Shown one piece after another: positions 2,380 through 45,800 of a DNA stretch of 56,184 bases (its first letter is position 1; each line of letters opens with the position of its first letter). The translations under genes were made by a program, and so were the position numbers. This DNA is from a virus. Under the pieces are notes generated by a model, which made no database searches, had not been told where the DNA came from, and saw only the letters and a list, made by a program, of their open reading frames with translations. Where the stretch lies: IMG/VR virus record IMGVR_UViG_3300042566_000389, positions 1 to 56,184 of that record; one strand, given 5' to 3'.

Positions 2380-2665
2380 AAACCGGAAACTCCTCGATCT
2401 GGCACGTGATCAGGCATGCGTGATGTGTGGCGCCCAAGATGGAACGGTGGTGGCTGCTCATTCAAACCTGCAGGAACACGGCAAGGGGATGGGGCTCAAG
2501 GCGCACGATGGTATGGCGGCATGGCTGTGTCACCGCTGCCACTCGCAGCTGGATCAGGGTAAGGCGATGACAAAGCACGAGAAGAATGTGTACATGCTTC
2601 AGGCTATTTGCCGCACGTATATGCACATGTGGGATCAACAATTGATTGAGGTAGTACGCAAATGA
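2369..2665 (+). CDS. YbcO-like (DUF1364) HNH-type nuclease
   Basis: This 98-residue protein resembles the DUF1364/YbcO family of lambdoid phages and prophages, small zinc-binding proteins of the HNH nuclease superfamily thought to act in recombination or DNA processing. Visible features are CVMCG near residue 17, the AAHSN motif near residue 30 and CHRCHSQLDQG near residue 55, which together give the expected metal ligands. Translation appears to begin at TTG 2369: AAGGA lies eight bases upstream and the resulting N-terminus MTYRNRKLLDLAR fits the family. It overlaps both neighbours. Activity is inferred from family membership. Confidence 0.8.
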   Translation: MTYRNRKLLDLARDQACVMCGAQDGTVVAAHSNLQEHGKGMGLKAHDGMAAWLCHRCHSQLDQGKAMTKHEKNVYMLQAICRTYMHMWDQQLIEVVRK

Positions 2666-3123
2666 CAGTGATTGCATGGGACGGAAAGACACTCGCGGCT
2701 GATAAGCAAGCGACCGAGGGTGGGCTGCGGCAGGTGACAACCAAGATCATGTTGGTTGAGAAGGGCAAGTTCAAAGGACATCTGCTGGCTGGCGCTGGTT
2801 CCTCGTCCCAAGCAAACATGCTGATGGCGTGGTTCGTACAAGGCGCTGACGCTGAGTGTTTCCCCAAGTATCAGGACACCGATGATTTATCGGCTGCGCT
2901 GCTGGTCATCACGCCAAGCAGAGAGATCCTGCGCTACGACTTCAACCCCATCCCGGTTGTATTCCACGACGAGAAGTACGCCCTGGGAACTGGACGCGAG
3001 GTGGCTATCGGCGCAATGGCAATGGGCGCTACCGCAGTTGAAGCGGTTGAGATTGCATCACGGCTGTGCTCAGGCTGCGGCATGGGGATCGACAGCATCA
3101 CGATGAAGAAGGGGAAGAAGTGA
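2662..3123 (+). CDS. Proteasome/HslV-like Ntn hydrolase
   Basis: A 153-residue protein whose N-terminus, MTVIAWDGKTLAADKQAT, resembles beta subunits of the 20S proteasome/HslV family. After removal of the initiator Met, T2 would be the catalytic threonine. D14 and K28 stand where the conserved Asp and Lys of the family are expected, with a shorter loop than in HslV. The length is close to HslV (about 175). No HslU-like ATPase is encoded in the window, so it may act alone or with a host unfoldase, or may not be a protease. It sits between the YbcO-like gene and a coiled-coil gene, with ATGA overlap at its start. The fold call is fairly safe; substrate and role are unknown. Confidence 0.7.
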   Translation: MTVIAWDGKTLAADKQATEGGLRQVTTKIMLVEKGKFKGHLLAGAGSSSQANMLMAWFVQGADAECFPKYQDTDDLSAALLVITPSREILRYDFNPIPVVFHDEKYALGTGREVAIGAMAMGATAVEAVEIASRLCSGCGMGIDSITMKKGKK

Positions 3124-4705: not shown

Positions 4706-4781
4706 GCAGTCTCCCGACTGTACCCTTCATACCTCTCTCGGAGGTTTCACCCCAGGTCTCATAACCCTGGGGTATTTTTTT
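4706..4781 (+). terminator. Hairpin series ending in a strong factor-independent terminator
   Basis: Three hairpins follow in a row. The first has arms CAGTC (4707-4711) and GACTG (4716-4720) with loop TCCC. The second has arms ACCTC (4731-4735) and GAGGT (4741-4745). The third has arms ACCCCAGG (4749-4756) and CCTGGGGT (4766-4773), then A and seven T (4775-4781). The last is a textbook terminator for the early operon. The two upstream hairpins make this a 76-base structured tail. The minus-strand operon ends at 4780 on the other side, but the T-run only suits the plus strand. Confidence 0.85.
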
Positions 4782-5187
4782 ACTCAGCTTGTGCTAGCTC
4801 TGCTTGCATCTTGGCTAGCTTCTTACGTGCATGCGTCAGCTTCAATGAGAAACTGAGCGCACGCTTCCATGCTTCCGACTTCGGCTTACCCTTGAGTGCA
4901 GTCGAGATCTTCTGCCGCACCTCTGGGCTATGCGTTGAGCCGGGCTGTCTGCCACCTCGACGCTTGGGCTGAGCCTTCACCTCAGGTTTAACTTTCACCT
5001 GCAGCTCAGGCTGAGTGACGATCGCCTTTGGTGGACGACCGCGGCGCTTCTGTATCTGGTCACTCTTGATCTTGTATGTACGCTCATACAGATCAGACAT
5101 GGCAAGCAGCTGCCCCTCAAAGGTGCGATGCTCTTTGGCAGCAAGTGTTTCGATACGTGCGATCGTTTCTTTCTTCAGTGCGTGCAT
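4780..5187 (-). CDS. AT-hook and NUMOD3-like DNA-binding protein
   Basis: This very basic 135-residue protein carries two recognisable DNA-binding elements. KRRGRPPKA (near residues 47-55) is an AT-hook core that would sit in the minor groove of AT-rich DNA. SPEVRQKISTALKGKPKS (near residues 87-104) matches the NUMOD3 pattern usually found in homing endonucleases and some phage regulators. The two are joined by a Lys/Pro-rich linker, and the C-terminus is a basic helix. There is no nuclease domain. It is the last gene of the leftward operon and could regulate it or bend phage DNA. Confidence 0.6.
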   Translation of the reverse strand: MHALKKETIARIETLAAKEHRTFEGQLLAMSDLYERTYKIKSDQIQKRRGRPPKAIVTQPELQVKVKPEVKAQPKRRGGRQPGSTHSPEVRQKISTALKGKPKSEAWKRALSFSLKLTHARKKLAKMQAELAQAE

Positions 5188-5198
5188 GGTATTACTCC

Positions 5199-5519
5199 TT
5201 AGTTAACTGCTGGGCTGGAATCAAATGGATTCATCTTGTTGTCTAGCATGTAATGGAACAGCGCGAAGTAGCGCCGTCTATTGGTTGCTCCTCCAAGACG
5301 ACGCACTACGTGATCCGATCCTCCAAGACGACGCACTACGTGATCCGATATTTCCATGAACTTTTCGCGAGACATCATCAAGACTGTCTTGTTATTCCAA
5401 GTCAGCTTGACGTGTGTTCCGCCGTTAGCTGTTGATAAGTTCGCTCCGGCACGGAACTTGGAGAACTCAGGTAATTCGTACTCATCGATTGCTTTGACTG
5501 CGCGTTGATAGAAAATCAT
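5199..5519 (-). CDS. Hypothetical protein with an internal 10-residue duplication
   Basis: Not recognised; 106 residues. The middle contains SDHVVRRLGG twice in a row, produced by a perfect 30-bp tandem duplication at 5289-5349. Around it are polar, weakly basic segments. The start overlaps the stop of the upstream amidotransferase gene (ATGA), so the two are translationally coupled. The duplication keeps the frame, so the protein is probably still made. Whether the extra copy is general or peculiar to this isolate cannot be told here. Confidence 0.6.
   Translation of the reverse strand: MIFYQRAVKAIDEYELPEFSKFRAGANLSTANGGTHVKLTWNNKTVLMMSREKFMEISDHVVRRLGGSDHVVRRLGGATNRRRYFALFHYMLDNKMNPFDSSPAVN
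5289..5349. repeat. Perfect 30-bp tandem duplication, in frame
   Basis: The unit CCTCCAAGACGACGCACTAC (first 20 bases) extends for 30 bases and occurs twice without mismatch at 5290-5319 and 5320-5349; one more base (5289) also matches. Absence of any divergence suggests a recent slippage event, or a small assembly artefact. It adds ten residues to the encoded protein without shifting the frame. Confidence 0.95.
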
Positions 5520-6607
5520 GCTGTTACTCCTTCAAGTTTGATGTCTGCAAGGGCGCAGAGTTCAGGTTCCATTTCTTCCCAGATCTCGCAGATGAGATCG
5601 GCTGCTTCACCAACATCCTCGTTCACCATCTTTGAGATACCAGCGGCATTGAAGATGCTGTTGCGTTCGTTGCCATAGATCTCATAGATGAAACGCATGG
5701 CTGACATTGGACTGTTGTCGATCCAGTCAAGCGCACCTTGGAATCCGCCCAGCTGTACTGCGTTGTAGCTGTTGCGAATCAGACGCTTGAACTGTTCCGT
5801 CGATAGCTTCGGTGCCTCGTAACTTTTGCTGCGCTTCTTACGCTGCTTGGTTTTCTTAGACACCTGAGCTGGCGCTGGCTTCGCTTGCATCTCACGATCC
5901 ATGCGATCCCATTCACGCCACGTTGACGAGCTGGCGTAGCGCGAATCCCAGAACTCTGATTGAGTCTGCGCTGGATACTTGGGCTGATAGCTGTTCGGTG
6001 TGTACGCACTTGGTGTGTACGGCTTGACCGGAGCTGGCGGCTTGCCATATCCAAACTTGTATGGTGTCCAAGCGTAGGTGTTGGAGTACCAAACATCATC
6101 GTGAACAACACCGCTGCTCTTGTTGATGATCACAGAGTCGCCATCCTGATTCATGAAGGCGAACTTGTTGCTGTACCCAATGTGATTTGCGATCAAGTCT
6201 TGGAACCCAGGGTTGAATATCAGATTGGGATTCTCTTGCAGCATGGGCTTCAAGAAGTTCTGGATGTAATGCCAGGTGTCTGACATCTTCGGATCTTCTT
6301 TGTTGCCGGTAGACAGGATGCCGTTGTGCGCCATCCAGATACCGGGCACAACCTCATACGGGTGGCAATTGGCGATGTCGATTGCGCCGTGTGTCTTCAT
6401 GCGGAAGTGGATGATCGCTTCGTTACCAGCTACCTGATCGTTGTACAGGTCTTCGATCTCCTGCATGTTGCCAATCGACTTGATGACTTCGACTGAATCG
6501 CCACGCTTGACGATAGCTCCGAAGCCATCGGGGTTCTTGCTGTAGAAGTCGAGTAGCTGCTCGTAGCTGAACGTTGTATTGGCGGGGTGGTGAATAAGAA
6601 TGCACAT
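5516..6607 (-). CDS. Class II (Ntn) glutamine amidotransferase
   Basis: This 363-residue protein should release ammonia from glutamine for transfer to an acceptor. The first 170 residues form a class II glutaminase domain: the nucleophile Cys2 directly after Met1, DGFG near residue 27, HFRMKTHG with R69, the HP pair at 82-83, MAHNG with N95/G96, and SDT at 109-111. No sugar-isomerase, synthetase or PRPP-binding domain follows. The C-terminal half has a basic linker (KKTKQRKKRSK) and an unknown helical domain. The next gene upstream on the same strand is an amidoligase, 26 bases away, so the pair probably acts together, with ammonia or the C-terminal domain delivering nitrogen to the ligase. 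GGAGT precedes the ATG. Confidence 0.85.
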   Translation of the reverse strand: MCILIHHPANTTFSYEQLLDFYSKNPDGFGAIVKRGDSVEVIKSIGNMQEIEDLYNDQVAGNEAIIHFRMKTHGAIDIANCHPYEVVPGIWMAHNGILSTGNKEDPKMSDTWHYIQNFLKPMLQENPNLIFNPGFQDLIANHIGYSNKFAFMNQDGDSVIINKSSGVVHDDVWYSNTYAWTPYKFGYGKPPAPVKPYTPSAYTPNSYQPKYPAQTQSEFWDSRYASSSTWREWDRMDREMQAKPAPAQVSKKTKQRKKRSKSYEAPKLSTEQFKRLIRNSYNAVQLGGFQGALDWIDNSPMSAMRFIYEIYGNERNSIFNAAGISKMVNEDVGEAADLICEIWEEMEPELCALADIKLEGVTA

Positions 6608-6633
6608 GAAATACTCCAGTAAAGTTAAGTTGA

Positions 6634-8103
6634 TTAAGCTGCAATGCGTTGTGACTGCTCATCATCTGAGCTGTCGTTGAGAGACAAATAGCTGCGCAGA
6701 TATTTAGTATCTGCCCTGTTATCTGTGGACAAAATGAATTGCTTGAACCCAAGCGAGTTGAAGTCCCGCATGGATACGACACCTGGTGTGCAGAACTCGC
6801 AGACCGCATTGACAAACTCAAGCGCAGCCATGATTGACTCGTACCGTAGAGAGCCGCGGAAGATACGGAACTCCACTGTCTTGTCACCGCTTACGTTGAG
6901 CGCTTCGTAGCGATCGCCAGTTGCCTTGCCATGTGGCGTGAACTTCGCCATCTCTGGCTTGAACCTTGAATAGCCAGACTGATAACGACGTGCAATCTTC
7001 TTGATCAAAGACTCATTGCGAACGTCGTTGAGGAACGACTGCATCCGGTAGATCTGTGCTTGTGACAGATACTCCCGACCGACGTGGACGTGAAACCCGC
7101 AGCTGCCACCCTCGTGGGATCGCATGCCTTTCTTCACGTCCTTGTTATTCAGAAACGCTGCGAACTTCTCAGCGTGTACATCCAGGCCAGCTGGCTGAGT
7201 GATGATCTCGAAACCGCCCGATCCAATCGAACCGTCGCGTTCGAAGAAGCAGTACTCACCGACTTGACCTGACGGATTGAGTACGTCATGCACCCGGCCA
7301 GCACCGTTCGATGCGCTGCCAGTCGTGACCTGAACCTCCAGCTCGCAACCGAACGCACGACGATTGGACTTGAACCAGGTTGACTCGATCAGCTTGAAAC
7401 CCTTGCGCTTGCTACTGTGGTAGTCAGCGATCAGATTTCTGTATGGCGACCAGTCGTTGTGGTGCCAGAGCTGACGTGCTTCATTGAATGTGAAGTGAGG
7501 ATGACGACGATCGACGGTAACCGTTTCGCCATATTGATTGAATGCAGATACAACAAACTCTGGAAGTACAAAGTTGTTGTTGTATGAGCTGACGACGCGC
7601 GTGCCGTCATTCAGCAGTGTTGTTGCGCATGTCTGGCAAACGCCCTCGTTGTGACCAAACCCTTCAGCTGAACCACTCAGAAGAATCACGTCGCTAGTGA
7701 AGTGACCGCAGCTGGCGCGAGTTACACCTGCGCGGCTTGCTATACCGATGACGAACGATCCGTCACCAGCCTCTTCGAATTCAACGAGGCTCTGTTGAAA
7801 GAAAGTCGAGACGTTCCGGCTTTCTTCGATGCGCATGAACTGAAGCACCAGCTTCAAGCGACGTGCACCCAGGGGAGCGCTCTTGCTTGCGAGTGATGCA
7901 ACCGCCAGCATCTCATCGACGAAGCTGTTATCGACCGTGATCATTAGCTTCTTGATCAACAACAGCCAGCGATTGGTATGAATCCGAGCTGACGATGCGC
8001 GTGACATCGACTTGATGATGCGCTTGGTTAAGAGGTTGAGGAACGTGGTGCGTTCCAGCTTGCCTGCGATGAGGCGTGAACGTGCATAGCGATACATATC
8101 CAT
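6634..8103 (-). CDS. Amidoligase (carboxylate-amine ligase fold) with zinc-binding N-terminus
   Basis: This 489-residue protein belongs to the 'putative amidoligase' family, relatives of gamma-glutamylcysteine and glutamine synthetases that form amide bonds using ATP. Family motifs are visible in order: FGCELEV (251-257), RDGSI then GFEI with metal-binding Glu (289-300), CGFHVHVG (335-342) and N403 followed by TVEFRIFRG (409-417). Ahead of it lies a 230-residue extension with C132, H134, C156 and C159 spaced like a small zinc site. The substrate is unknown; the family is thought to modify peptides, proteins or wall components. It is paired with a class II glutaminase gene downstream. A hairpin and pyrimidine tract precede its GGAGT site, suggesting its expression is set by attenuation. 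Confidence 0.83.
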   Translation of the reverse strand: MDMYRYARSRLIAGKLERTTFLNLLTKRIIKSMSRASSARIHTNRWLLLIKKLMITVDNSFVDEMLAVASLASKSAPLGARRLKLVLQFMRIEESRNVSTFFQQSLVEFEEAGDGSFVIGIASRAGVTRASCGHFTSDVILLSGSAEGFGHNEGVCQTCATTLLNDGTRVVSSYNNNFVLPEFVVSAFNQYGETVTVDRRHPHFTFNEARQLWHHNDWSPYRNLIADYHSSKRKGFKLIESTWFKSNRRAFGCELEVQVTTGSASNGAGRVHDVLNPSGQVGEYCFFERDGSIGSGGFEIITQPAGLDVHAEKFAAFLNNKDVKKGMRSHEGGSCGFHVHVGREYLSQAQIYRMQSFLNDVRNESLIKKIARRYQSGYSRFKPEMAKFTPHGKATGDRYEALNVSGDKTVEFRIFRGSLRYESIMAALEFVNAVCEFCTPGVVSMRDFNSLGFKQFILSTDNRADTKYLRSYLSLNDSSDDEQSQRIAA

Positions 8104-8142
8104 GATTGAAACTCCTAAGTGTGGGAAAGAAAGAGGAGGCGA

Positions 8143-8171
8143 CTGCCGCCCCCGTAGGGATTAGGCGGTAG
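8143..8171 (-). promoter_or_regulatory. Intercistronic hairpin upstream of the amidoligase
   Basis: CTGCCGCC (8143-8150) pairs with GGCGGTAG (8164-8171), eight pairs including one G-U, loop 13 bases. Read on the minus strand it is followed by TCGCCTCCTCTTTCTTTCCC, then GGAGT and the amidoligase start. It overlaps the stop codon of the upstream gene. It is one of four similar elements in this operon and could be a leaky terminator or processing site. Confidence 0.6.
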
Positions 8172-8499
8172 GCGCCGGTGTTAATTTGGTATCGGGAAGT
8201 GGGAGGATGCGAGCTTTGCCAACTGATCCCGATCTAGCGGACTTCTTAAAAGCATCGAGCAACGTGAAGTTCATCTGCGCAGATATGTTTGCCCAGAAGT
8301 TTTCAAAGTCTTCATTGTCATCTCGGCAGAAGACTGCATCTCCTCCTCTGTTGTAAATGTCGTTGAATACTTCGTCGTCATCATCGATGTCGTAGCTGTA
8401 CCCGTTGTCATTCAGCAGGTCACGCAGCAAAGCGCCATCTGCTGTGAACGGTTCGTCAAATGCACGTTCGATTCTTTGCAATACATTTGAGTCACTCAT
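8161..8499 (-). CDS. Acidic hypothetical protein
   Basis: Not recognised; 112 residues. The centre is strongly acidic (SYDIDDDDEVFNDIYNRGG, then FCRDDNEDFENFW) and the C-terminus is basic then Pro/Thr-rich (LPLPDTKLTPAPTA). No membrane segment. It is directly upstream of the amidoligase on the same strand. Its carboxylate-rich surface makes it one conceivable substrate or DNA mimic, but nothing in the sequence proves either. Its start overlaps the stop of the preceding gene by four bases. Confidence 0.6.
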   Translation of the reverse strand: MSDSNVLQRIERAFDEPFTADGALLRDLLNDNGYSYDIDDDDEVFNDIYNRGGDAVFCRDDNEDFENFWANISAQMNFTLLDAFKKSARSGSVGKARILPLPDTKLTPAPTA

Positions 8500-8831
8500 T
8501 TGTTTAACTCCTCAAGAACCTGGTCAGTCTTCTTGTCGAGCGTCTTGCCCCACTCGAGAATCTCTTTGACTGTTTTCTCAGGCATGTTGTAGGCATCAGC
8601 CATCGTGCTCAGACCCAGGTCAGTCATCTGTGCCAGCTGCCCGAGCACACCGTGTATCGCTGCATCAGGTGCTTCACGGTTAGCGATGATTGAGATGAGA
8701 CGACCGAGGTGAAAGGACATATGCACGAACGAAACAGCCCGTGCGTACGGCTCTCCTTGGATAGCCTTGATACTGTCTATCGTTTCCTGGATAGATGTTT
8801 GCAAATCAGAAATAAGTTTGTCTTTACTCAT
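8496..8831 (-). CDS. Helical hypothetical protein
   Basis: This protein has 111 residues. The second ATG, at 8831, is chosen because GGAGTTCAAC stands right before it. The protein is predicted to be all helical (DLQTSIQETIDSIKAIQG, MPEKTVKEILEWGKTLDKK) with a hydrophobic middle that is not long enough for a clear membrane span (HMSFHLGRLISIIANRE). Not recognised. A hairpin with pyrimidine tract lies in its leader, inside the 3' end of the previous gene. Confidence 0.6.
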   Translation of the reverse strand: MSKDKLISDLQTSIQETIDSIKAIQGEPYARAVSFVHMSFHLGRLISIIANREAPDAAIHGVLGQLAQMTDLGLSTMADAYNMPEKTVKEILEWGKTLDKKTDQVLEELNK

Positions 8832-8846
8832 GTTGAACTCCAAAGA

Positions 8847-9041
8847 TTAAGAAGAATGAAGAGGCGACTCATCCCCTTCACGGAGTGAGGGGTGAGTTGC
8901 CGGGGTGTCGAGGGTTAACTGCCATTGGTAATGGGGGAAGTTGCCAACGTTGCTGCCGTTGCAAAGGCCGGTGATGACGTTGCCGATTGCATCATCCAGC
9001 TGCCAAAGCTCATCGACTTCGATGTTGATGGTGAGTTTCAT
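8847..9041 (-). CDS. Small hypothetical protein
   Basis: Sixty-four residues from ATG 9041, which follows GAGGGG at a normal distance; a GTG nine bases earlier overlaps that site and is less likely. It has a beta-rich N-terminus (KLTINIEVDELWQLDDAI) and a hydrophilic tail. The tail codons also form the hairpin at 8867-8897, so the 3' end serves as both coding and RNA structure. Not recognised. Confidence 0.55.
   Translation of the reverse strand: MKLTINIEVDELWQLDDAIGNVITGLCNGSNVGNFPHYQWQLTLDTPATHPSLREGDESPLHSS
8867..8897 (-). promoter_or_regulatory. Hairpin within the 3' end of a gene
   Basis: ACTCATCCC (8867-8875) pairs with GGGTGAGT plus flank (8889-8897), nine pairs with one G-U, loop 13 bases. 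On the minus strand it is followed by CGCCTCTTCATTCTTCTT, then GGAGTT and the start at 8831. It belongs to the same class as those at 8143, 11242 and 11466. Confidence 0.6.
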
Positions 9042-9328
9042 GTCTGACACCCCTCATAGACAGCTACGTTGCGAACAATCTGAACGCGGCTGGAAAGGTG
9101 AGGCATAGGCTGAGCTACGCCCGTTGCGAGATCGACCAGAAAGAATGGGCGCTCATCGTCATACAAACCATGCAACAGGCCAGGTCGGCCAGCTCGTTTG
9201 CCCTTCTCGTTGAATACAGAAACGAGATACAGCGCAGGCAACAACTCGCCGCATGAATCCGTAATGCGAACCACATCTCCAGCTTGTGCGTGGCAAAGCT
9301 TCGGTAATGCTGTGTTGATAACGATCAT
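9038..9328 (-). CDS. Hypothetical protein of the leftward operon
   Basis: Not recognised; 96 residues with alternating hydrophobic and polar residues typical of small beta-barrel folds (AGDVVRITDSCGELLPALYLVSVFN, split by glycines). It has three Cys. Both ends overlap neighbours by four bases, so it is part of a coupled string. No motif suggests a function. Confidence 0.6.
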   Translation of the reverse strand: MIVINTALPKLCHAQAGDVVRITDSCGELLPALYLVSVFNEKGKRAGRPGLLHGLYDDERPFFLVDLATGVAQPMPHLSSRVQIVRNVAVYEGCQT

Positions 9329-9489
9329 GTTGATTTCTCCTCGACAAAGACAACCTCAGCAAAGAGATCGTCGTAAGGCACGTTCTGATATGCCTTGGTT
9401 AACGCCTTGCGACCAGCATCAGCCTGGTCTTCGGCTTCGATGTCCATGTACACGGACGCTTCGTAGTGAACTTGCACGTTGAACTTCAT
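9325..9489 (-). CDS. 54-residue hypothetical protein
   Basis: The start at ATG 9489 is decided by AGGAGG five bases upstream, trimming a longer reading frame by ten codons. The product MKFNVQVHYEASVYMDIEA... has the look of a compact alpha/beta domain: a beta-hairpin, then a helix with DQADAGRKALTKA. Many phages carry similar small proteins of unknown role. Confidence 0.6.
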   Translation of the reverse strand: MKFNVQVHYEASVYMDIEAEDQADAGRKALTKAYQNVPYDDLFAEVVFVEEKST

Positions 9490-9689
9490 TCCATCCTCCT
9501 GTTGAAATACTTGGAGCACTCGACTGCTACGTTGTCGGTCATCTCAACCGTTCGGTAATACAGCCAGTCAGGCCCGTCGTTAAACGCTTCGTTGGCACGA
9601 CAGAACTCAGTTGCTCTTTGTTCTGTGGTGAATACTGCGATGTGCATGTCGCCATCCATGCCATCGTTAACGCATACGTACAGCTTCAT
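9486..9689 (-). CDS. 67-residue hypothetical protein
   Basis: Not recognised as to function. The pattern KLYVCVNDGMDGDMHIAVFTTEQRA followed by AFNDGPDWLYYRTVEM resembles small phage proteins with one beta-hairpin and one helix. It overlaps both neighbours by four bases, in the ATGA style. Acidic overall. Confidence 0.6.
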   Translation of the reverse strand: MKLYVCVNDGMDGDMHIAVFTTEQRATEFCRANEAFNDGPDWLYYRTVEMTDNVAVECSKYFNRRME

Positions 9690-10036
9690 TCCTCCACCTC
9701 CAATGGCCAGGCACGATCGCCATAACGATGCAGCCCAGAAGCCAACGCTGCTACATCAGCTGCTTCCATAGATTCGTAGAGGTACCCGTAGTGATGACCA
9801 GGAATCGTGCAATACCGATTGATCCAGTACGTCTTCTTGACTGGAGCCATGACGAATCTGTTTTTCATATCGTCGAGCGTTCGTACAGCGGGGAACTGAT
9901 CGTTCAATTGGTACATAACAGTCTTGGTTTGCTCATCAAACGCAATGACGCGTCCGATGGAACGTGCACCTGAGATAGTTGGATTGAACGAAATTTGTGC
10001 GCCAGCTAAAGCGGCTGTGAGATTGAAAGGTTTCAT
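9686..10036 (-). CDS. Hypothetical protein
   Basis: This protein has 116 residues. An N-terminal beta-rich half (ISGARSIGRVIAFDEQTKT, then a YQL strand) is followed by a segment rich in Tyr and His (CTIPGHHYGYLYESMEAADV). Not recognised. AAGGAGT precedes the ATG. It lies four bases after the upstream gene's stop. Confidence 0.6.
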   Translation of the reverse strand: MKPFNLTAALAGAQISFNPTISGARSIGRVIAFDEQTKTVMYQLNDQFPAVRTLDDMKNRFVMAPVKKTYWINRYCTIPGHHYGYLYESMEAADVAALASGLHRYGDRAWPLEVEE

Positions 10037-10039
10037 GTG

Positions 10040-10354
10040 TTACTCCTTGAGGTCAGGGAAAGGGATCTTGGTTAACTCACCGATTTGCACCGGCTTCTTG
10101 CGGGTACTGCGTTCGATCTCGATCATGCGTTGGATCGAATGAGGGCGACCTGTCTCGGCGTTGATGTACCAAGGCGTGCCGCCTCCGCCACCTCCAGATG
10201 TGCCGCCGCCACCTCCAGCTCTGACCCGAACAACGTCTCGGCTGAGGATCTGCTGAAGAACTGTCATTTGCCGCCTCAGTTCTGATGGAGCAGTTGCAAC
10301 TGGTTCGTCGTTGTTTTGAAAGCTGTCTGTGATGGGGTTGTAATAAAGCGGCAT
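10040..10354 (-). CDS. Hypothetical protein with glycine-rich hinge
   Basis: This protein of 104 residues starts at ATG 10354, set by AAGGAGG just upstream. A helical N-terminal part (APSELRRQMTVLQQILSRD) and a basic C-terminal part (HSIQRMIEIERSTRKKPVQ) are joined by an exposed linker of eleven glycines broken by TS. The linker would be flexible. Function unknown. It is one of several odd small proteins co-transcribed with the amidoligase. Confidence 0.6.
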   Translation of the reverse strand: MPLYYNPITDSFQNNDEPVATAPSELRRQMTVLQQILSRDVVRVRAGGGGGTSGGGGGGTPWYINAETGRPHSIQRMIEIERSTRKKPVQIGELTKIPFPDLKE

Positions 10355-10459
10355 GCTTCCTCCTTGCACGGAAAGATCCAGCGATACGGCAGCGCTGGTA
10401 TTGAGAGTGAATCGCAAGTGCGGAGCGCTGAAAAGAACTCAACACTCCGCACCTGCGTG

Positions 10460-10651
10460 TTAGACGAACAGAGAGAAAGACAAAAACAAAACTACGATTG
10501 ACGCCAGACCGAGCAGTCCACCCAAGACAACCTTGACTGGGTGAATACGCTCAGGTTCGTAAGGCACATAGCCTCGATCGAACTCACGGATGGAGCGACC
10601 TGCGAAGTTGGGTGAAGAAAGATCAGGGTGATGTTTAGGCCAGTTGCTCAT
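10460..10651 (-). CDS. Small C-tail-anchored membrane protein
   Basis: Sixty-three residues with a polar N-terminal 38 residues and one hydrophobic span at the very end (VVLGGLLGLASIVVLFLSFSLFV), so it should sit in the inner membrane with its N-terminus in the cytoplasm. It is coupled by ATGA overlap to the 30-residue membrane peptide encoded just upstream. The two may work together. Not recognised. Confidence 0.6.
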   Translation of the reverse strand: MSNWPKHHPDLSSPNFAGRSIREFDRGYVPYEPERIHPVKVVLGGLLGLASIVVLFLSFSLFV

Positions 10652-10740
10652 GGTTGAACTCCAAAGTAAGCGAGAAGGGTTGCGACGGCGGCGAGCTTGA
10701 TGGTGAGAAGAACCAAGATCTCGGTGATTTCTGCGTTCAT
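10648..10740 (-). CDS. 30-residue membrane peptide
   Basis: A very short gene: ATG at 10740 preceded by GGAGTTAAT and ending in an ATGA overlap with the next start. The product has a short acidic head (MNAEITE) and one hydrophobic helix (ILVLLTIKLAAVATLLAYF). Translation is supported by the ribosome site and the coupling. Single-span peptides of this size in phages often act on host membrane proteins, but no target can be named. Confidence 0.55.
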   Translation of the reverse strand: MNAEITEILVLLTIKLAAVATLLAYFGVQP

Positions 10741-10852
10741 ATTAACTCCATTGGTTGATACTGCAACAGTACTGCTGATACTCGAAGGTGCAAAGAGCCG
10801 GAAACCCTTGGCGCAAAACACCTCCGATGTATCGAGAACACGTAGAGGAGAA

Positions 10853-11194
10853 CTACTGCTGCTTGTTAGAAGTGAAGTGAGCACGAAGAAGAGCGACAGC
10901 CTCGTGAACCTTAGCGTCATGTGTCTTGGCAAGTCCCAAGAGAGCCAAAGCTTCAAGCACCTTGGTTGACATCTCCAGTTCACCGCAAGTCATGCGTGTG
11001 AGTACGCGACCTCCAGTATTCTTGAGATGCTCTTTATCCCGCTTAGATGCAGGAGCGTTACGGATGATGCACGATGCTTCCCAGGACGTGGTTGGCATCT
11101 CGTTAATGGAGATGAGGCTGCGATCAATCAGAGCGTTGATGCGGTTGATCTGAGCTTGTGTAGCTGCGCGAACGGTGTTGTTTTCGATAGTCAT
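10853..11194 (-). CDS. Hypothetical helical protein
   Basis: This protein has 113 residues. The start at ATG 11194 follows GGAGTTCTTATC. It is helical and slightly basic, with NRINALIDRSLISINEM, KRDKEHLKNTGGRVLTRM and a C-terminal KVHEAVALLRAHFTSNK. Not recognised. A U-rich hairpin lies just upstream. The 112 bases between its stop and the next start hold no supported gene. Confidence 0.6.
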   Translation of the reverse strand: MTIENNTVRAATQAQINRINALIDRSLISINEMPTTSWEASCIIRNAPASKRDKEHLKNTGGRVLTRMTCGELEMSTKVLEALALLGLAKTHDAKVHEAVALLRAHFTSNKQQ

Positions 11195-11241
11195 GATAAG
11201 AACTCCAGGTAGTTGAGAGGTAAAAAGAAAGAAAGAAGCAA

Positions 11242-11272
11242 CTGCCCCCTTCAAAGCGAAGCGTGGGGGCAG
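11242..11272 (-). terminator. Hairpin with U-rich tail in the leftward operon
   Basis: CTGCCCCC (11242-11249) pairs with GGGGGCAG (11265-11272); the 15-base loop reads TTCAAAGCGAAGCGT on the plus strand. On the minus strand the stem is followed by TTGCTTCTTTCTTTCTTTTTA, which resembles a factor-independent terminator. Since genes continue beyond it, it may attenuate rather than stop transcription. Its loop is identical to that at 11475-11489. Confidence 0.65.
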
Positions 11273-11288
11273 GTGCTGGTGAGGAGAG

Positions 11289-11438
11289 TTACTGCTGTAG
11301 ATCGAAAAGAAACTGGTTGTAAGGCTCAGAGTCAACAGGAAGAACCGCGAAGTCATCAGACATGTGATTCATCTCCTCCAGTTCCTCTGCGTAACACCAA
11401 GTTCCATCAGCCCATACAAGAATGTCTTCGCTGTTCAT
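11289..11438 (-). CDS. 49-residue acidic protein, first gene of the leftward operon
   Basis: A short gene from ATG 11438 to a TAA at 11289-11291, with GGAGTTTGAT before the start. The product begins MNSEDILVWADGTWCYAEEL, is strongly acidic and has one Cys and two Trp. Small proteins with the DGTWC pattern occur in other phages, with no known role. It is bracketed by two hairpins that share a loop. Being first in the operon, it would be the most highly expressed if the hairpins attenuate. Confidence 0.6.
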   Translation of the reverse strand: MNSEDILVWADGTWCYAEELEEMNHMSDDFAVLPVDSEPYNQFLFDLQQ

Positions 11439-11465
11439 ATCAAACTCCTTTAGAAAATAGAGGCG

Positions 11466-11498
11466 ACCACCTCCTTCAAAGCGAAGCGTGGAGGTGGT
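11466..11498 (-). promoter_or_regulatory. Leader hairpin of the leftward operon
   Basis: ACCACCTCC (11466-11474) pairs perfectly with GGAGGTGGT (11490-11498). The 15-base loop, TTCAAAGCGAAGCGT, equals that of the hairpin at 11242, while the stems differ in sequence and keep pairing. On the minus strand CGCCTCTATTTTC follows, then the AAGGAGT site of the first gene 28 bases on. Confidence 0.65.
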
Positions 11499-12165: not shown

Positions 12166-12256
12166 TATCTAGCATCGAATAGAACCCCTCACGCCTCTTT
12201 ACTGTGATACGCGCCCATGATCGGGACGGAAACGCGCACCCCGAGGGGTCTTTTAT

Positions 12257-12331
12257 TGCGGAGTGGCGCAGCAGCAGCGCACCGGACTCATAATCCGGGG
12301 GTCGGAGGTGCAATTCCTTCCTCCGCAACCA
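12257..12331 (+). tRNA. tRNA with anticodon CAU (Met or Ile2 type)
   Basis: All four arms fold. The acceptor stem is TGCGGAG/CTCCGCA (12257-12263, 12321-12327). The D stem is GCGC/GCGC. The anticodon stem is CCGGA/TCCGG with loop CTCATAA, CAT at 12289-12291. The T stem is GGAGG/CCTTC. A discriminator A and an encoded CCA follow. The first pair is T-A, and the anticodon stem lacks the three G-C pairs of initiators, so it should be an elongator, read either as Met or, if C34 is modified to lysidine, as Ile for AUA. The D loop (AGCAGCA) lacks the GG pair and the T loop is TGCAATT with G at position 55, so the usual elbow contact is missing. Confidence 0.88.
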
Positions 12332-36887: not shown

Positions 36888-39800
36888 ATGGCTGAACTTT
36901 ACAAATCCGCAGACGAGGCATCACGAGAGGTGCGCAGCACTGGGCAAACAGGTCAACTGGGAACAGAAGACCAGGCCCGGATGGAGCCATCTCGCACCGC
37001 GATTACGCCTCCTGATGCGGCAGTACCAGCAACACCCGCAGCTCCTCCAGAGCGCTATGTCAGCCCGATTCTGTCGGCGTATGAGAAAGCGCCGCTTGGT
37101 GCGCCAGTGGCGAATCAGACAGCGGAAGAGCCATACGAGTCTACGATCCTTAAGAACTACCGCGCCAGCTATGAATACGATCGAGCTGAGGCGGCAAAGA
37201 ATGCACCAGCTCCAGTAGCTGGAAACAAAGACGGCAACTTTGGTACTGACCTGGTTGCGTTGACAGCCCTTGGCGTTGACAACCTGGCTGCAAATGCACG
37301 CGAGTTGATTGGTCGCGTCCCTGGTATTGGCAAGTCAATCGTTAACGGGCTGGATGCAATCGACCGCTGGACTACCGGTAAAGGTAGTGATCAGCTGATT
37401 CGTGAAAGCACGCAGAAAAGTAAAGAAGCTCTTACGCCAGAGATGACGTCGGCGCAGAACAAGCAGTGGTGGGATTCGGAAGCCGGTTCATTTGGTTCGG
37501 CATGGACTGACCCGCGCAGCTACATCAGCGGAATCGTCCAGTCTCTGCCAGAACAAGCTATCTCGATGGGGCCTGCGCTTCGTCTGGCTAAGGGCGTGTA
37601 CTCAGCCAAGATCGCCGCAGGTGCATCAAAAGAGATTGCAGCGGCAGCAGCCGCACGTGCAGCCACAATTGCTGGCGGCATCTCTGAAGGTGCTTTGGCT
37701 GGCGCTGGCTCAGCCCGTGAAGTGCGTGACCAGGTGATGGCTCTTGATCCAAAGATCCTCGAGCAGTCACAGGCGTTCCAGACCTTGATCGGTCAGGGCA
37801 TGGATCCGGTTGAGGCAAAGTCGGCTCTGGCTGAAGACCTTGCAACTCAGGCGTTCATCACGTCAGGCGTAATCACAGGCGCATTCGGTGGATTTGGTGA
37901 TCGCGTCCTGGCGAAAGCAATCACGACTGGCCTTGGCAAAAACATGATCACCCGCGGCTTCAAAGGCGCTATCGGTGAAGGTGTGCTTGAGGAATTCCCA
38001 CAGGAATATGGATCGAAAGTCGCGCAGAACCTGGCTTTGCAGCAGGCTGATTCGCGTGTTGGTGCGTTCGATGATGCGCTCAACAGCGGTCTTGGCGGTC
38101 TAGCCACAGGCGGTATCCAGGGTGGCGCAATGACTGCCATCGGCGGAAAGAACGCAGGCGAACCCAAGACCCAGGAAGTGACTGATACAGACGGCAACGT
38201 CACGGTGAAGTACAACACCGAGGTCAACCAAAACAACCAGGATCAGGCACGCCAATTCAAGATGACGGATGACGAGTTCAACTCGCGCATCCAGAACCCT
38301 GCCTACATGGCAGCTGAGTACCTGATGTCTGATGACGGTACTCGCGCACTCCTGCGTCAGGCCAATCCTGACATGGACTTCAACTCCATGATCAAAGATC
38401 AAGAGCTGGTCAATCAGGGATTGGAGATGCGCACCAATGATCCAGCCTGGAACTCATTCTTCACTCGACTGGAGGAGACCGGACAAGGCAAGCCGGGCAC
38501 TTCTTCGCCTGCTGATATTAGCGATCCTAATAAGGACGCTCCGTTCGATCCATCGGATACGGCTGACAACCCCGCTCCACGTTTCACGCCTAGCCGCGCA
38601 AACATGGACATCGCTGGTGATCTGGCCAGCCAGGGGATTGATGAGGCTGAGGGCGTATTCACCCGCAACAAGCCAGGTGCAGATCAAAGCAATCAGCAAC
38701 TCACTAGCGGCCCGGAGCAAACCGAGAGCGCCACGAATCCAGAGATGGATGTCCTGCGCGAGGGCTACAGCCGTGAGGTTCGCAACATTGAGGCGATGAC
38801 AGATCCTGCTCGCCAGCGCTACACGGCAGACCAGGCCATCACCAGCATGATCCGTTCAGGCTTCACGTTTGATGAAGCCAACCAGATGTTTGGTCAGTTC
38901 ATCACGCCGATCGAGGCAACCGATGTTGCTGACACTGGTGCGACTGAGCAACAAGCTCCGGTTGAAACGGTCAGCGAAAGACTGCAGACATTCAACAAGG
39001 TTCGCAAGAATCTGGTTAAGCAAGACAACGGCAAGTGGAAAGTTGATTCCACTGAAGCCGACTACGCCCCTGCCAACCTGTCGCCAGACATCTACAAGAT
39101 CGCCTCTATGTTTGGCGTGAAGGTGGTCGGGTTCAAGTACACGGGCAAAGATCCAAAGATGGCACGTCGAGCTGGCTTGTCCACGCCTGACGGTATTGCC
39201 CTGAACGCTAGCGTGCGTGATCAGTTCCTGACCGTGTTTGGTCACGAGGTCTATCACAACCTATCCAAGCGTGACAAAGCCCTCGCCAAAGAACTTGAGG
39301 CGCGGGTGCTGGAGTACATCTCCGAGGAAGGCCGCGAGGCAATGCGCACCAAGCTGGCGAACATCGGCTATGACGCATCCAAGATGGACGAGGAGACGGT
39401 TGCTGATGTCATGGGCATCATGTTCCAGGACGCTCAGTTCTGGGAGAAGTTGAGCCAGGAAAAACCTAGCCTAGTGCAGCGTGTGATGCGCGTCATTGAT
39501 GACTTGATTCGCCGCTTTGGTCAGTTGAACAACCGCTCAGAACTTGTCGCGTTGCACATCCAGGAAATGGAAACCGTGCGCGACATGATGGCTGATTTCG
39601 TCACGCAGGCTCTGGACAAGCAACAGGCTCAGACCACCGCAATTGATGAGTCAATCGAGATTGGTGATGACCCTGTGGGTCAGTTCAAAGCGATTGCAGC
39701 GACCGGTAACAAATCTGCTGCAGCCAAGTTCTTCAAAGAAGCAAAGCTGTTCCCAGTCATGGGCAACTTCAACGTGGCGTATGACGAGGCGAACAAGCCT

Positions 39801-42800
39801 GCACCTGCGCCAGTGGAGAAGGTTGCTCCAGTACAGAAAGCTGCAGCTCCGGTTGAGACCTTGCCTGGAGATATGCCGCCTCTGCGTGAAGCTGACAACC
39901 AGGACACATCACCTCCTCGCAAGCCTGGCAAGTTTGAGAACGGCACAGCTATCGACGCTGGCACGTACTCACCGCCACTCAAGGCAGAAGCAACAGACCT
40001 TGGCACAGCCGCCAAGGAGACTGATGCTCAGCGTAAGGAACGCGTCAAGTCAAAAGCTGCAGCAGCTCGCAAGACATATTCAGACGGCGTTGCACGCGCA
40101 ATCATCAACCAGGATCTCGATTCCAAAGGTGATGGCGTTGTCACTCCAAAGGTTGAGTACGAGTTCCTGAAGGGCAAAGACGCTGAGGGCAACCCGATTG
40201 TGGTTGGCAAGGTGTTATCGGCCAACGGCAAGTACTACCGCTTCAACATCAAGCCTGACGGCAGCTTCAACTACGGCACCGCTGACAACGTTGGCGCTGT
40301 CATTGCCAAGCTCCCAGAGGGCGCTACGTTGCGTCGTGTCCGTGAAGGTGCTGACCCAGTTCAGACCAGCATGGATCTGTACGGCAACAAAGAGCAGGCC
40401 AACAAGTTCAAGGCTGAAGTCCAGCGCATCATGACTCAGGCATTCACGCCAAGTCGTGTCGCCCAGGATCTAGCCGAGCTGCGTCAATCGCTTCAGGACA
40501 AGTTCCAGACCCCGTTCTTCAAGAATGGCAAGGATCGTTCTGACGCTGAGTACATCTTCAAGATGTTTGCTGACGTTGGCGCTATCAGCTCTGACGACGT
40601 GGTGCAGAAGAACGAAGAGATTGATGCCATCAAGGCAGCGATTGAGAAGCTTCAGAACCAGGACGTGCGTGCGCGTGCCGGGATGGTGAAGGTCAACGCA
40701 GCCAAGATCGATGACGCTCTGGATAACCTGCGCCGCGACATGGCTGAAGCCGGAATGAGCCAGCAGCAGATCAATGAGATCGTCGGCCCAGCTCAGGACA
40801 GCTTAGCTGCGTTGCAAGATAACAACGATGCTCAGTCTGTACTGGAAGAGACCGGTAACGACCAGCCAACCCGTGACGAGAAAACGCAGAACCTGCCAGG
40901 TCGCCAATTCTCAGACGCACGTCAGGCTGCAGCTGCCGCTGTCGATGAGATCGTCAACTCCAACACCAGCCCGATCACGATCATTCGTCGTGAGCTGAAC
41001 AAGCCCGACCGCGAGTTCACGTTCAGTGACCTGCGCAAGGAAATGGCTGCGCGTGGCATGGACATCTCTGAGATCGACCGTGAGGTTGCTCAGTGGCCTG
41101 CTGCTCAATACAGCCTCGAGTACTGGGTGAACAAGAAAGCAGGCGTGATGAACCCATACGCCGCCCGTACAGCCTGGTTCAACTCGTACAAAAACATCAT
41201 GGCCATCTACAAGGGTGAGCCAGCGATGCAAGCGCAATATGAAAAAGAACTATCGGATGTCGAGCGTCGATTCATTCGCTCTATGGAGGCGCAGCGTGAA
41301 GCTGTCCGTAACCGTCGAGACGAGGTGGTCGATGAGTTTGGCGTAGGCAAGCAGACACCTGAAGAGGCATTCCCGCACGCGCTGTTCAACAAGTACAGCC
41401 TGAACGACATGCGCAACCTGGAGGAAGCAAACATTCCCGAGGATGACGCTGCCGTGCTGCGATCACTGGTTGGTGGCAACACCACATTCCTGCCCCGTTT
41501 GTGGCTGGATGACGTGGCGTATGCGATGGATGCCCGTAAAGACCTGCGTGATCAGATCCTGGCTGGCATGAGCGATCGTGAAGCTCAGGCTGTCACACGC
41601 TACTTACAGATGTCCGCGGCTGCTCTGGCTAACAACGAGCGCATCAGCGCACTGCGTAGCTACAGCACGATGCTGGACAACATCGAAGGTCTCGACCGTG
41701 AGGCTTACGAGGCGTTCAAACAGCAGATTATCTACGCTGATCTGAAGGCTATCCCCGCTGTTCTGCAACGAGCACAAGAGATTGCCGACATCACATCTCA
41801 AGCTAAGGACAAGAAGCAGCTGGGTGAAATGCTCAGCGCCTTCCTCGACAAGGTGTATCACGAAGATGAGATGCAGTCGCGCACCTTGGATGAAACCAAG
41901 GACGAGTTCGACAAGATCGCTGGACGTGGCACACCTGAAGTAACCGACGCGGATGTGGACGGCTACCTCGAAGAGATGAATCGTCTTGGCGCACAGGAAG
42001 GGCAGCTGGATCGCACCTCTGCTCGCAACAACCTGATGTACCAGAAGATCGCCCAAGCCATCGTTGATGAGCAGCAGGGCAACATCCAGGTCAACGAGAA
42101 CGAAACACCTGCATCCACGAATGACCAGCCTGAGAACCAAGTTGGTCTGAGTGGTGACATCCAGTACAAGCGTGGTCGCTTCTCAAGTGGCCCAGCTGCA
42201 GCAACCGTGCAGGCTCACATTGCTGAGATCACCCAGAACTGGAAGAACAAGCCAAACGTCCAGGTCTTCTACAACGTAGAGCAGATCGCTGATCCTGAGC
42301 TGCGTGCACGCCTGACCGAACGAGCTGAAGCTGGCGCGTTCAAGGGTGCGATCGATCCGAACACTGGCGCTGTTTACATCTTCAGCCAGCACGTTGAGGA
42401 CGTGGCCGACGCTGAGTTCGTGATGTTCCACGAGCTGTACGGTCACTGGGGCTTGCGTCGATTCTTGGGCGACAAGCTGAACGCATTCCTTGAGAACCAG
42501 TACCGCCTGAACAAGCAGATCAAAGCCGAAGCCGATCGCCAATTCAATGATGCGATTGAAGACGGTAGCCCCATGTCACGCCTGGAGTCGGTGGAAGAAG
42601 CCATCTCCGACATGGCAACCAAAGGCGAAGGCAGTCTCTTCCGCCAGTTGATTGGTCAGCTGGTGTCTTGGCTGCGCAAGCACAACATGAACACGGTTGC
42701 TAACTGGATGGACTCCAGCGGAACAGCCGAGCTGGCGCATGTCCTGGCTGCAGCACGTAGAGTGGCACGCACTGGTGAAGGCGTTTCGCCTATGAACGGT

Positions 42801-45800
42801 GCTCCACAGAAGGTGTTGTACGCACGCAACAATAAGCCGGTTGAACTGTTCTCTACCCGTGACGACAAGCTCACTGGCTACGCCCGTATGAACCCGGTCA
42901 ACCAGTACTGGACGGTGTTCACGATTAAAGATCCTGCCACCGGAGACTTTGGCGCTATCACTGTCGAAGACCTGGGTGAGGCAACTGCAGTCCTGAAGAA
43001 GGTCGGCACGATCTCCAAGTCGAAAGACCGCGACACGCGCCAGCAGATTGACCCGAACAACCTCGAGCAGATCCCTGACTACAACAACCTGAGTGGCTGG
43101 AAGAAGTTCACCCGCAACGCTCAGATCCATTTACAGAACGTCTATCTGCCGATCTTTGAGGTGGCTCGATTCCTGGATAGCAAGGGCGTGAAGAACAGCG
43201 TGATCCAGGACTTGATCATGTACGAGTCACGTCTTGGCTACTTCGTCAATGACTTCGAGAAGCGCATCGCCAATCCAGTTCAGCGTTTATTGGCTGACGC
43301 TGGTAAGAAAGGCGCGACCGTCGAGGACATCGATGAGTACCTGATGGCACGTCACGCAGAAGAGCGTAACGACGCAATCAACACGATCAATCCAGACAAC
43401 CGCCAGGGCTCTGGCATGTCCACCAAGGAAGCGGGTGAGGCACTCAAGCGATTGGAAGCCTCTGCCTTCTCGACTGAGCTGAAAGAGATTGGCAAGTTGA
43501 TGGATCAGTTGAGCCGAGACAAGCTCAACGCGCTGCTGAATTCTGGCTTGATCAACAAGTACCAGTACGCCGCGCTGTCCAAGTACGAGCACTACGTCAA
43601 CCTGTCAGGAAACAAGGCTCTTGGCCTGGATGCGTATGACAGCAAATCTCTGGGTGGCAAGGCGTTCAACCTGAAGGGCGCTGATGTAATCCGCTCAACA
43701 GGTCGCGGCACCAAGGCGGTTGATGTTCTGCAGAACACGATGAACTCGTACCTGTCAGCCATCATCCGTGCGCAGAAGAATCGTCCTGTTACCGCCATCC
43801 TGAAGATGATGGAGCAGAACCCAGATCCGACATACGTCACGATCGAGCCAATCAAAGAGAAGAAGACGGTCAACGTTGAGCGCCTGAACTTTGATAAGCA
43901 GATCCTGCGTGTGATCGGTGATGCGCCAACAGAATTCTCCGGTCGTGAGTACCTTAAGGAATTGAAGTCACGCGTTGAAAGCGGTGAGATTGATACTGAC
44001 GATGCCTTGTCTGAACTGGCCAGCCGAATCAACGAAGCCGAACAGCGTCGAGATGGCATCACGCCGGCAGACGCAACCAAGGCTATCCGCCAGTTGAGCG
44101 AAGCCGTTGTCACATCCGCACGACTGTCGCCTGATGGCTACGTGTCAATGGTGGAAGACAACAGCCTGATGCTCGATCCGTCCGTCCTGGTTGCCAAGGT
44201 GGATGGTCGCCCTGTCGTTATGCGCTTTACTGAGCGTGGCGGTGAGTTCATCCAGTCGATCACCGGCATGAACATCCAGCAGGGCGGTGCGTTCACCGAG
44301 GCAATGGGCAAGTGGAACAGATTGTTCAGCCAGCTCGTTACCTCCTGGAACCCAGCCTGGTTGCCGATCAACTTCATCCGAGACATTCAGACTGCATTTG
44401 CCAACGCCTCATCCGATCCTCGTGTCGGTGTGAAGCTGGCCAATGAGATGCGTAAAGAGTGGATGCCTGCGCTCAAAGCTGCATGGCGCTACACCCGTAT
44501 CGAACAGGCTGAGATGAAGGGCGAGGAAAGCAAGGCCATGCTCTCTGATGAGTGGCGTGACCTGATCCAGGACTTCTACAAAGATGGTGGCGGCACGTTC
44601 TTCCTTGACCGTAAGGGCTTGGAGCAAACGCTTGACAAGATCAACCGCCATATCAACGGGCCTCACGGTGTTCGCGAGAACATTGAAAGCAAGCTAGAAG
44701 TCATTGGCGACTTCATGGATTTGCTGGCTACACCTTCTGAATTGGCACCTCGCCTAGCTGCATACAAGGTGCTCTTGAAGAACGGCTGGTCACGCGAAGA
44801 CGCTGCGCAGTACGCCAAAGAACTCACCGTCAACTTCAACATGAAGGGTGAGGGCAAGTCGTTCCGCTCGATGTACGTGTTCGCTAACCCAGCCATTCAG
44901 GGTACGTTCCGTCTGTTCCAGGATTACAGCCGCGGCGATAATGGCATTCAGCGCTTTATGCCTAGCAACCGATTCGCTGCTGTGGCTGGCACATGGATGA
45001 TGCTTGGCATGCTCGCCAACTACATCGCTCGCGCAATTGGCGGTGATGATGATGAGCGCCCAGGTGTTGACCAGCTCGACACGATCCCTGGCTTCAAGCG
45101 TTCCACCTCGCTGATCTTCATGCCGAATATGGTTGGCGGATCTATCCCTGTGGCTTACGGATGGAACCTGTTCTCCACGGCTGGCACCTACATGTTTGAT
45201 GTGATGACTGGGCGCACCAAGCCTGAAGTCGCAGCAACCAAGGTACTGGCTACGGCGTTCGATTCCCTGTCACCGCTTGGCTCTGGCGCTGAATCGAAGA
45301 CGTTGACTGGCATGGGACTGAAGACGTTCCTGCCTTCACCTCTGGTGCCTCTGGCTGAACTTGGCTTGAACGAGAACCGCTTTGGCGCTCCGATCTACAA
45401 AGAGTCGAATGCGTTCTCTGACATCAAAGAGGGCAACGCGTACATGCACTTTAACAGCGTGAACCCGCTGTCCAAGGCAGCGATGCAAGCCCTGGCACAG
45501 GCAACTAGCGACGGCAACGCACGCTACAAGCCAGGTCTGATTGACGTGAACCCTGCTGCTGTTGATTACCTGATCTCGTCGTACCTGCCAGGCTTGTTCA
45601 ACGAGGCGTACAGGTCTGCCGGATGGGCTGCTAACAAGATGGCTGGTCGTGACGTGAAGGATCTGCCAGTGCCAGTCGTTGATCGCTTCAAGGCGAAGAC
45701 ACCTGAAGGCTTTGATAACGGCGCAGTGAAGCGTGTGAGCGCAGCTGTTGACACTGTGTTCAGTGAGTTCAGTTCACGGGCAACATCGCCTGAGCGCCGC

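Follow-up and report, generated by a model that had tools for sequence, protein, structure and literature searches.

A phage amidoligase-glutaminase pair and a C-terminal tail, shared by unrelated neighbouring proteins, that may serve as a docking tag

Phage genes for an amidoligase and a class II glutaminase have been found side by side before. A pair of this kind is reported in the OM43 phages MEP401/402 (PMC10580990), in a paper that refers to Iyer 2009 for phiEco32 and to Mageeney 2012 for mycobacteriophage Marvin. The LUZ24-like phage UFV-P2 (PMC3890496) and PSA-HP1 (PMC5498523) also have the pair. Existing proposals for its role, namely wall modification and superinfection exclusion, derive from gene context and are presented as still to be explored, and the substrates of phage amidoligase/glutaminase pairs appear unestablished. 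The preliminary description of the locus studied here presented it as an undescribed system. Because of the earlier reports from Marvin, MEP401/402 and LUZ24/phiEco32-type phages (in the last with additional enzymes), the pair itself has to be regarded as a known kind. For the tail system and the four-gene arrangement described below, we found no report in the literature searched, mostly papers outside subscription.

The window, by which we mean the whole analysed stretch of 56,184 bases from IMG/VR record IMGVR_UViG_3300042566_000389, encodes a primase-helicase, terminase, portal/adaptor, major capsid protein, integrase and CI-like repressor. With this gene set it is probably a temperate tailed phage. 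Since the closest terminase from an isolated phage is only 46% identical to that of the window, the group appears to be uncultured, and our sample of it comprises 25 contigs, the window and 24 others from IMG/VR. A Betaproteobacteria-1 RNA in one related phage (L122:5672-5797, minus strand; score 68.5, Rfam cut-off 49.4) hints at betaproteobacterial hosts. The structural genes of the window end in a single ORF of 3065 residues (36888-46085, plus strand) that takes up one sixth of the record. Sub-threshold matches to the abiF RNA (RF03085, cut-off 37 bits) fall in the tRNA regions of two related phages, at 12185-12249 (plus strand; 32.0 bits) in the window, adjoining a tRNA-Met gene at 12257-12331, and between two tRNA genes in a second phage (L123:180-241; 28.9 bits). 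These could be phage copies or decoys of an RNA antitoxin, or chance matches.

The amidoligase (489 residues; 6634-8103, minus strand) scores 28.3 bits against Pfam Amidoligase_2 (PF12224), above the curated cut-off of 22, and matches phrog_16683 with an E-value of 1e-28. Residues E254, E256, D290, E299, H338, H340, E411 and R413 are kept in all 31 relatives aligned. The preliminary description had recognised the motif set of the family in this protein and had proposed an HMM search as a check; that search places the protein inside Amidoligase_2. The AlphaFold2 model (mean pLDDT 83, with residues 374-399 and the C-terminus poor) retrieves glutamine synthetases, YbdK, GmaS and Dop from the PDB (E-value 3.5e-5, probability 1.0), and the catalytic domain is thus predicted to have a glutamine-synthetase fold. 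Global TM-scores of these matches are low (0.25-0.3) because the amidoligase has an extra N-terminal region. This region of approximately 240 residues, which combines helices with a C132/H134/C156/C159 motif, is group-specific and finds no counterpart in the aligned amidoligases of Marvin, MEP402 or Manatee Spring. The four residues are invariant in 15 of 15 aligned group members, so the zinc-like CxH/CxxC extension noted earlier is real at the level of sequence. One scan for bacterial chromosomal homologues gave just a weak match to an archaeal MAG.

Its partner (363 residues; 5516-6607, minus strand) falls under the Pfam GATase_4 cut-off (17.2 against 23 bits) and has weak matches to PurF and to the glutaminase part of GlmS (PDB 1xff, E-value 0.004). 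The set M1-C2, R69, N95, G96 and D110, which includes the Cys2 nucleophile, is kept in 31 of 31 aligned relatives. By its motifs and its similarity to GlmS, the protein is a divergent class II glutaminase, though not a member of the Pfam family, and the earlier assignment from Cys2, R69 and N95/G96 holds.

The glutaminase gene directly follows the amidoligase gene in 24 of the 25 group contigs; the odd one out, L103, is a 7.7-kb fragment that stops roughly 640 bases beyond the amidoligase. Amidoligases of more distant relatives also adjoin a glutaminase in most cases. In three distant viral contigs (L162, L165 and L175) two pairs lie in a row, each ligase with a glutaminase of its own. Furthermore, the identity matrices of the two enzymes correlate both within the group (r = 0.78) and among distant relatives (r = 0.57), and none of 2000 permutations reached the r of either set. 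The adjacency, the doubled pairs and the correlated matrices together support a dedicated glutaminase-ligase couple. This agrees with the preliminary description, in which the glutaminase was suggested to feed the amidoligase, and the neighbourhood comparison proposed there finds the pairing conserved across the group, distant relatives and isolated phages. PADLOC profiles run against seven proteins gave no match to a known anti-phage defence system.

Both enzymes belong to a minus-strand gene run from 11438 down to 4780, for which the earlier coordinates and frames are correct. The run had been described as an operon of about fourteen genes; the run is real, whereas the conserved module within it comprises four genes only, those at 8496, 8161, 6634 (amidoligase) and 5516 (glutaminase). 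The protein encoded at 8496-8843 (minus strand; 115 residues as listed, with a probable start at 8831) is small and all-helical-looking, has no match in Pfam, and has homologues at the same position in 16 of 18 group sequences. Most remaining operon genes are missing from relatives and mostly specific to the window phage: among the same 18 sequences, the gene at 4780 recurs in five, that at 10460 in three and that at 5199 in two, and relatives of the gene at 10853 are present in L002, L005 and L006. Within gene 5199-5519, a perfect 30-base tandem duplication (5289-5348) doubles the peptide SDHVVRRLGG. An HslV-family peptidase-like gene at 2662-3123 (plus strand; phrog_1040, E-value 4e-29) was considered as a further part of the module and rejected, being absent from the window genes matched in L002-L006.

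In four operon genes, the ribosome-binding site is preceded by a GC-rich hairpin with a pyrimidine run. The element ahead of the amidoligase start lies at 8133-8153 (minus strand) and related ones at 8856-8881, 11229-11269 and 11454-11494 (minus strand), with similar hairpins ahead of the amidoligase in several relatives. RNAalifold, applied to an automatic alignment of these leaders, returned no consensus structure, and the hairpin at the amidoligase start lacks covariation support. As for the control region that the operon had been credited with, the repeated leader hairpins are all that speaks for it; a search of the leader region gave no sigma-70-like promoter.

The gene that immediately precedes the amidoligase gene (8161-8499, minus strand) encodes a 112-residue protein whose C-terminal motif VGKARILPLP (8194-8223) recurs, in variant forms, in most of the group. 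The proteins encoded at this position usually have 106-136 residues, and their bodies are only about 20% identical to that of the window, with the C-terminal tail kept. The tail follows the consensus [VI]GxxTx[IL]P[FL]P and is itself followed by 0-21 variable residues. Across the 25 contigs, leaving out L103, it is clear in 21, degenerate in the near-identical L067 and L070 (SIGSLAKPNLP), and absent in L160, which has the amidoligase/glutaminase pair and no tail gene. In the AlphaFold2 model of the window protein, residues ~3-89 have pLDDT values of about 90 and the tail falls below 50, which predicts a folded alpha/beta domain carrying a disordered linear motif. A search of the body fold against the PDB and BFVD gave no match below an E-value of 0.001.

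The same tail is found on unrelated bodies. In the window, a second carrier (10040-10417, minus strand) is glycine-rich, listed at 125 residues with a probable start near 10354, carries the tail motif IGELTKIPFP (10055-10084), and lacks homologues both in the group and in the phage collection searched. In L004 and L150 the upstream genes form a separate family (41% identity between the two) without a match to the body of the window tail protein, and yet they are tailed (TGQSTRLPLP and TGSAAALPLP, respectively). L004 has further carriers, a 75-residue protein weakly matching DpnD/PcfM and another of 107 residues, and one of its carriers lies downstream of the glutaminase; Api92/DUF1281 proteins carry the tail in L016 and L150. 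Homologues of two of these bodies elsewhere align without the tail, up to residue 149-178 of 199 for Api92 in other phages and up to residue 107 of 117 for the L150 upstream family, and the tail therefore looks like an appended element. The earlier suggestion that some of the small neighbours could be substrates thus gains candidate names from the shared tail. No shared tails were detected in 11-13 kb regions of six other amidoligase phages (Marvin, MEP402, Manatee Spring MW202733, C. difficile AR1086-1, Acinetobacter 313 and StenR_269), which indicates that the pair does not in itself require the tail.

The possibility that the shared tail reflects chance similarity or recent DNA duplication deserves attention, as a motif of 10 residues is short and this one was initially picked out by eye from the same loci. 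We derived a weight matrix from the tails of 11 upstream proteins and used it to score the last 35 residues of each of 994 non-overlapping ORFs from 16 genomes or contigs. Four of five carriers outside the training set scored above every unrelated ORF, with 23.9 (10040), 22.3 (Api92-like), 21.7 (L004_9329) and 15.1 bits (L004_5429) against 12.1 for the best unrelated ORF; the fifth (L004_4629), where the spacing is one residue shorter, reached only 8.6. Shuffling gave maxima with a mean of 11.4 and a highest value of 20.5 in 100 runs. Contigs found later are a fairer test because the motif was spotted by eye in the original loci, and four of five of these are tailed (L149, L150, L151 and L153, at 17-31 bits), L149 being close to L065. 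Across seven long contigs, 11 C-terminal pattern matches occur in 3975 ORFs against 1.2 expected by shuffling; eight are operon carriers and three lie in ORFs unsupported as genes. The codons differ from one tail copy to another. Given the profile, shuffle and codon tests, we reject chance or DNA-level duplication, to which we assign a very slight probability.

The tail also appears to be tied to these operons. In the seven genomes no tail was found outside amidoligase operons, and the amidoligase-free contigs of the pattern or terminase scans yielded no convincing carrier. An IMG/VR scan with the pattern G..TKIPFP gave 31 loci, among which only the group contigs L041 and L052 also encode an amidoligase. 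All others fall at internal positions or in short ORFs of unproven coding status, and the tail as a wider phage feature was rejected.

We tentatively propose that the tail is a docking tag, through which the amidoligase and glutaminase modify, or are steered by, phage-encoded clients; on sequences and predicted structures we rate this somewhat below an even chance. In such a scheme, the glutaminase would hydrolyse glutamine and pass ammonia to the amidoligase, which would activate a carboxylate with ATP through its glutamine-synthetase fold and join the ammonia to it, resulting in amidation. Family knowledge and the conserved residues support ATP-dependent carboxylate activation and ammonia supply as the likely chemistry. 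The client would be a small phage-encoded protein presented via its disordered [VI]GxxTx[IL]P[FL]P tail, which might dock on the ligase complex, perhaps at the N-terminal ~240 residues, which the aligned amidoligases of other families lack. Position, co-occurrence and this group-specific region are what suggest that the ligase recognises the tail. If any tailed body can serve as a client, this would explain why several unrelated operon proteins have acquired the tail. As the residue count after the motif varies (0-21), the C-terminal carboxylate is not an obvious target. The presence of one tail on non-homologous bodies of the same operons speaks for a docking tag, whereas L160, with its pair and no tail gene, and the degenerate tail of L067 and L070 speak against it. 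A more specific version is possible but doubtful: the 10-residue tail would be transferable, and the GS-fold amidoligase, supplied with ammonia by its own glutaminase, would recognise it and modify the several unrelated phage proteins that bear it.

The main rival is that the target of the pair is a host or cell-wall peptide, such as a peptidoglycan stem that becomes amidated, and that this modification blocks superinfection, with the tail proteins as accessories. It follows a published proposal for related enzymes of phiEco32/LUZ24/RIO-1-type phages (PMC5498523, PMC10580990, PMC11945000) and fits the occurrence of the pair without tails, but it leaves the shared tails unexplained. Moreover, the gamma-glutamyl cyclotransferase GGCT (PF06094) of the wall cassette was not found in the window, whereas the control genomes were positive; the COOH-NH2 ligase (PF14395) gave no match in the window, with the control genomes silent too, and no ATP-grasp protein appeared among those scanned against broader family collections. 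We consider wall modification unlikely here, though a serious contender.

Alternatively, the tail proteins may be adaptors or subunits, their tails docking the bodies on the ligase and the bodies recruiting host targets or aiding ammonia transfer. Several unrelated bodies with one tail, their predicted folded domains, and the near-constant position of one carrier beside the ligase gene are all consistent with such a role, but body types vary even next to the ligase (L004 and L150), unlike a fixed subunit. Adaptors and substrates are inseparable by sequence, and on balance we regard the adaptor role as rather improbable. It is less likely still that the tail binds something else, such as a host factor, a protease or another phage protein, and merely shares an operon with the amidoligase. 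Neighbourhood is indeed the only link between the two, and one L004 carrier lies downstream of the glutaminase; against this, in the seven genomes and in the pattern and terminase scans a convincing tail is seen only in operons with this amidoligase.

If the docking tag proposed above is correct, the tail would give an enzyme of ATP-dependent amidation a portable handle, and the phage a new route to modify its own or host proteins. The co-encoded tail-bearing proteins are concrete client candidates and make the substrate question testable by mass spectrometry, and the 10-residue motif offers a marker for further clients in metagenomes.

Among described systems, the pair of Marvin (cluster S) and MEP401/402 has the same two families, adjacent and in the same order as in the window. 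Identity is about 27-37% and confined to the catalytic half; the N-terminal regions differ, and the neighbouring proteins of Marvin and MEP402, unlike those of the window, share no C-terminal tails. The 'peptidoglycan modification' cassette of phiEco32/LUZ24/RIO-1-type phages likewise combines an Amidoligase_2 protein with a class II glutaminase in a phage early region (Iyer 2009; Hardies 2013; PMC5498523). Compared with this cassette, in the window GGCT was not found, a second ligase and an ATP-grasp protein were not seen in the scans, and the gene at 8496 and the tail protein are extra.

Pupylation by PafA/Dop resembles the window in its GS-fold carboxylate-amine chemistry, Dop being among the fold matches of the amidoligase. 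In pupylation, the substrate protein has a disordered C-terminal recognition region. The tail proteins differ in having no GGE/GGQ end (tail ends checked), there is no proteasome, and a separate glutaminase would supply the ammonia. Graspetide (microviridin) ligases offer an analogy of another kind, in which a short conserved leader peptide with a variable remainder is encoded beside an amide-forming ligase gene. These ligases are ATP-grasp enzymes acting with an N-terminal leader on short peptides, whereas the window would combine a predicted glutamine-synthetase fold with a C-terminal tail on putative folded domains.
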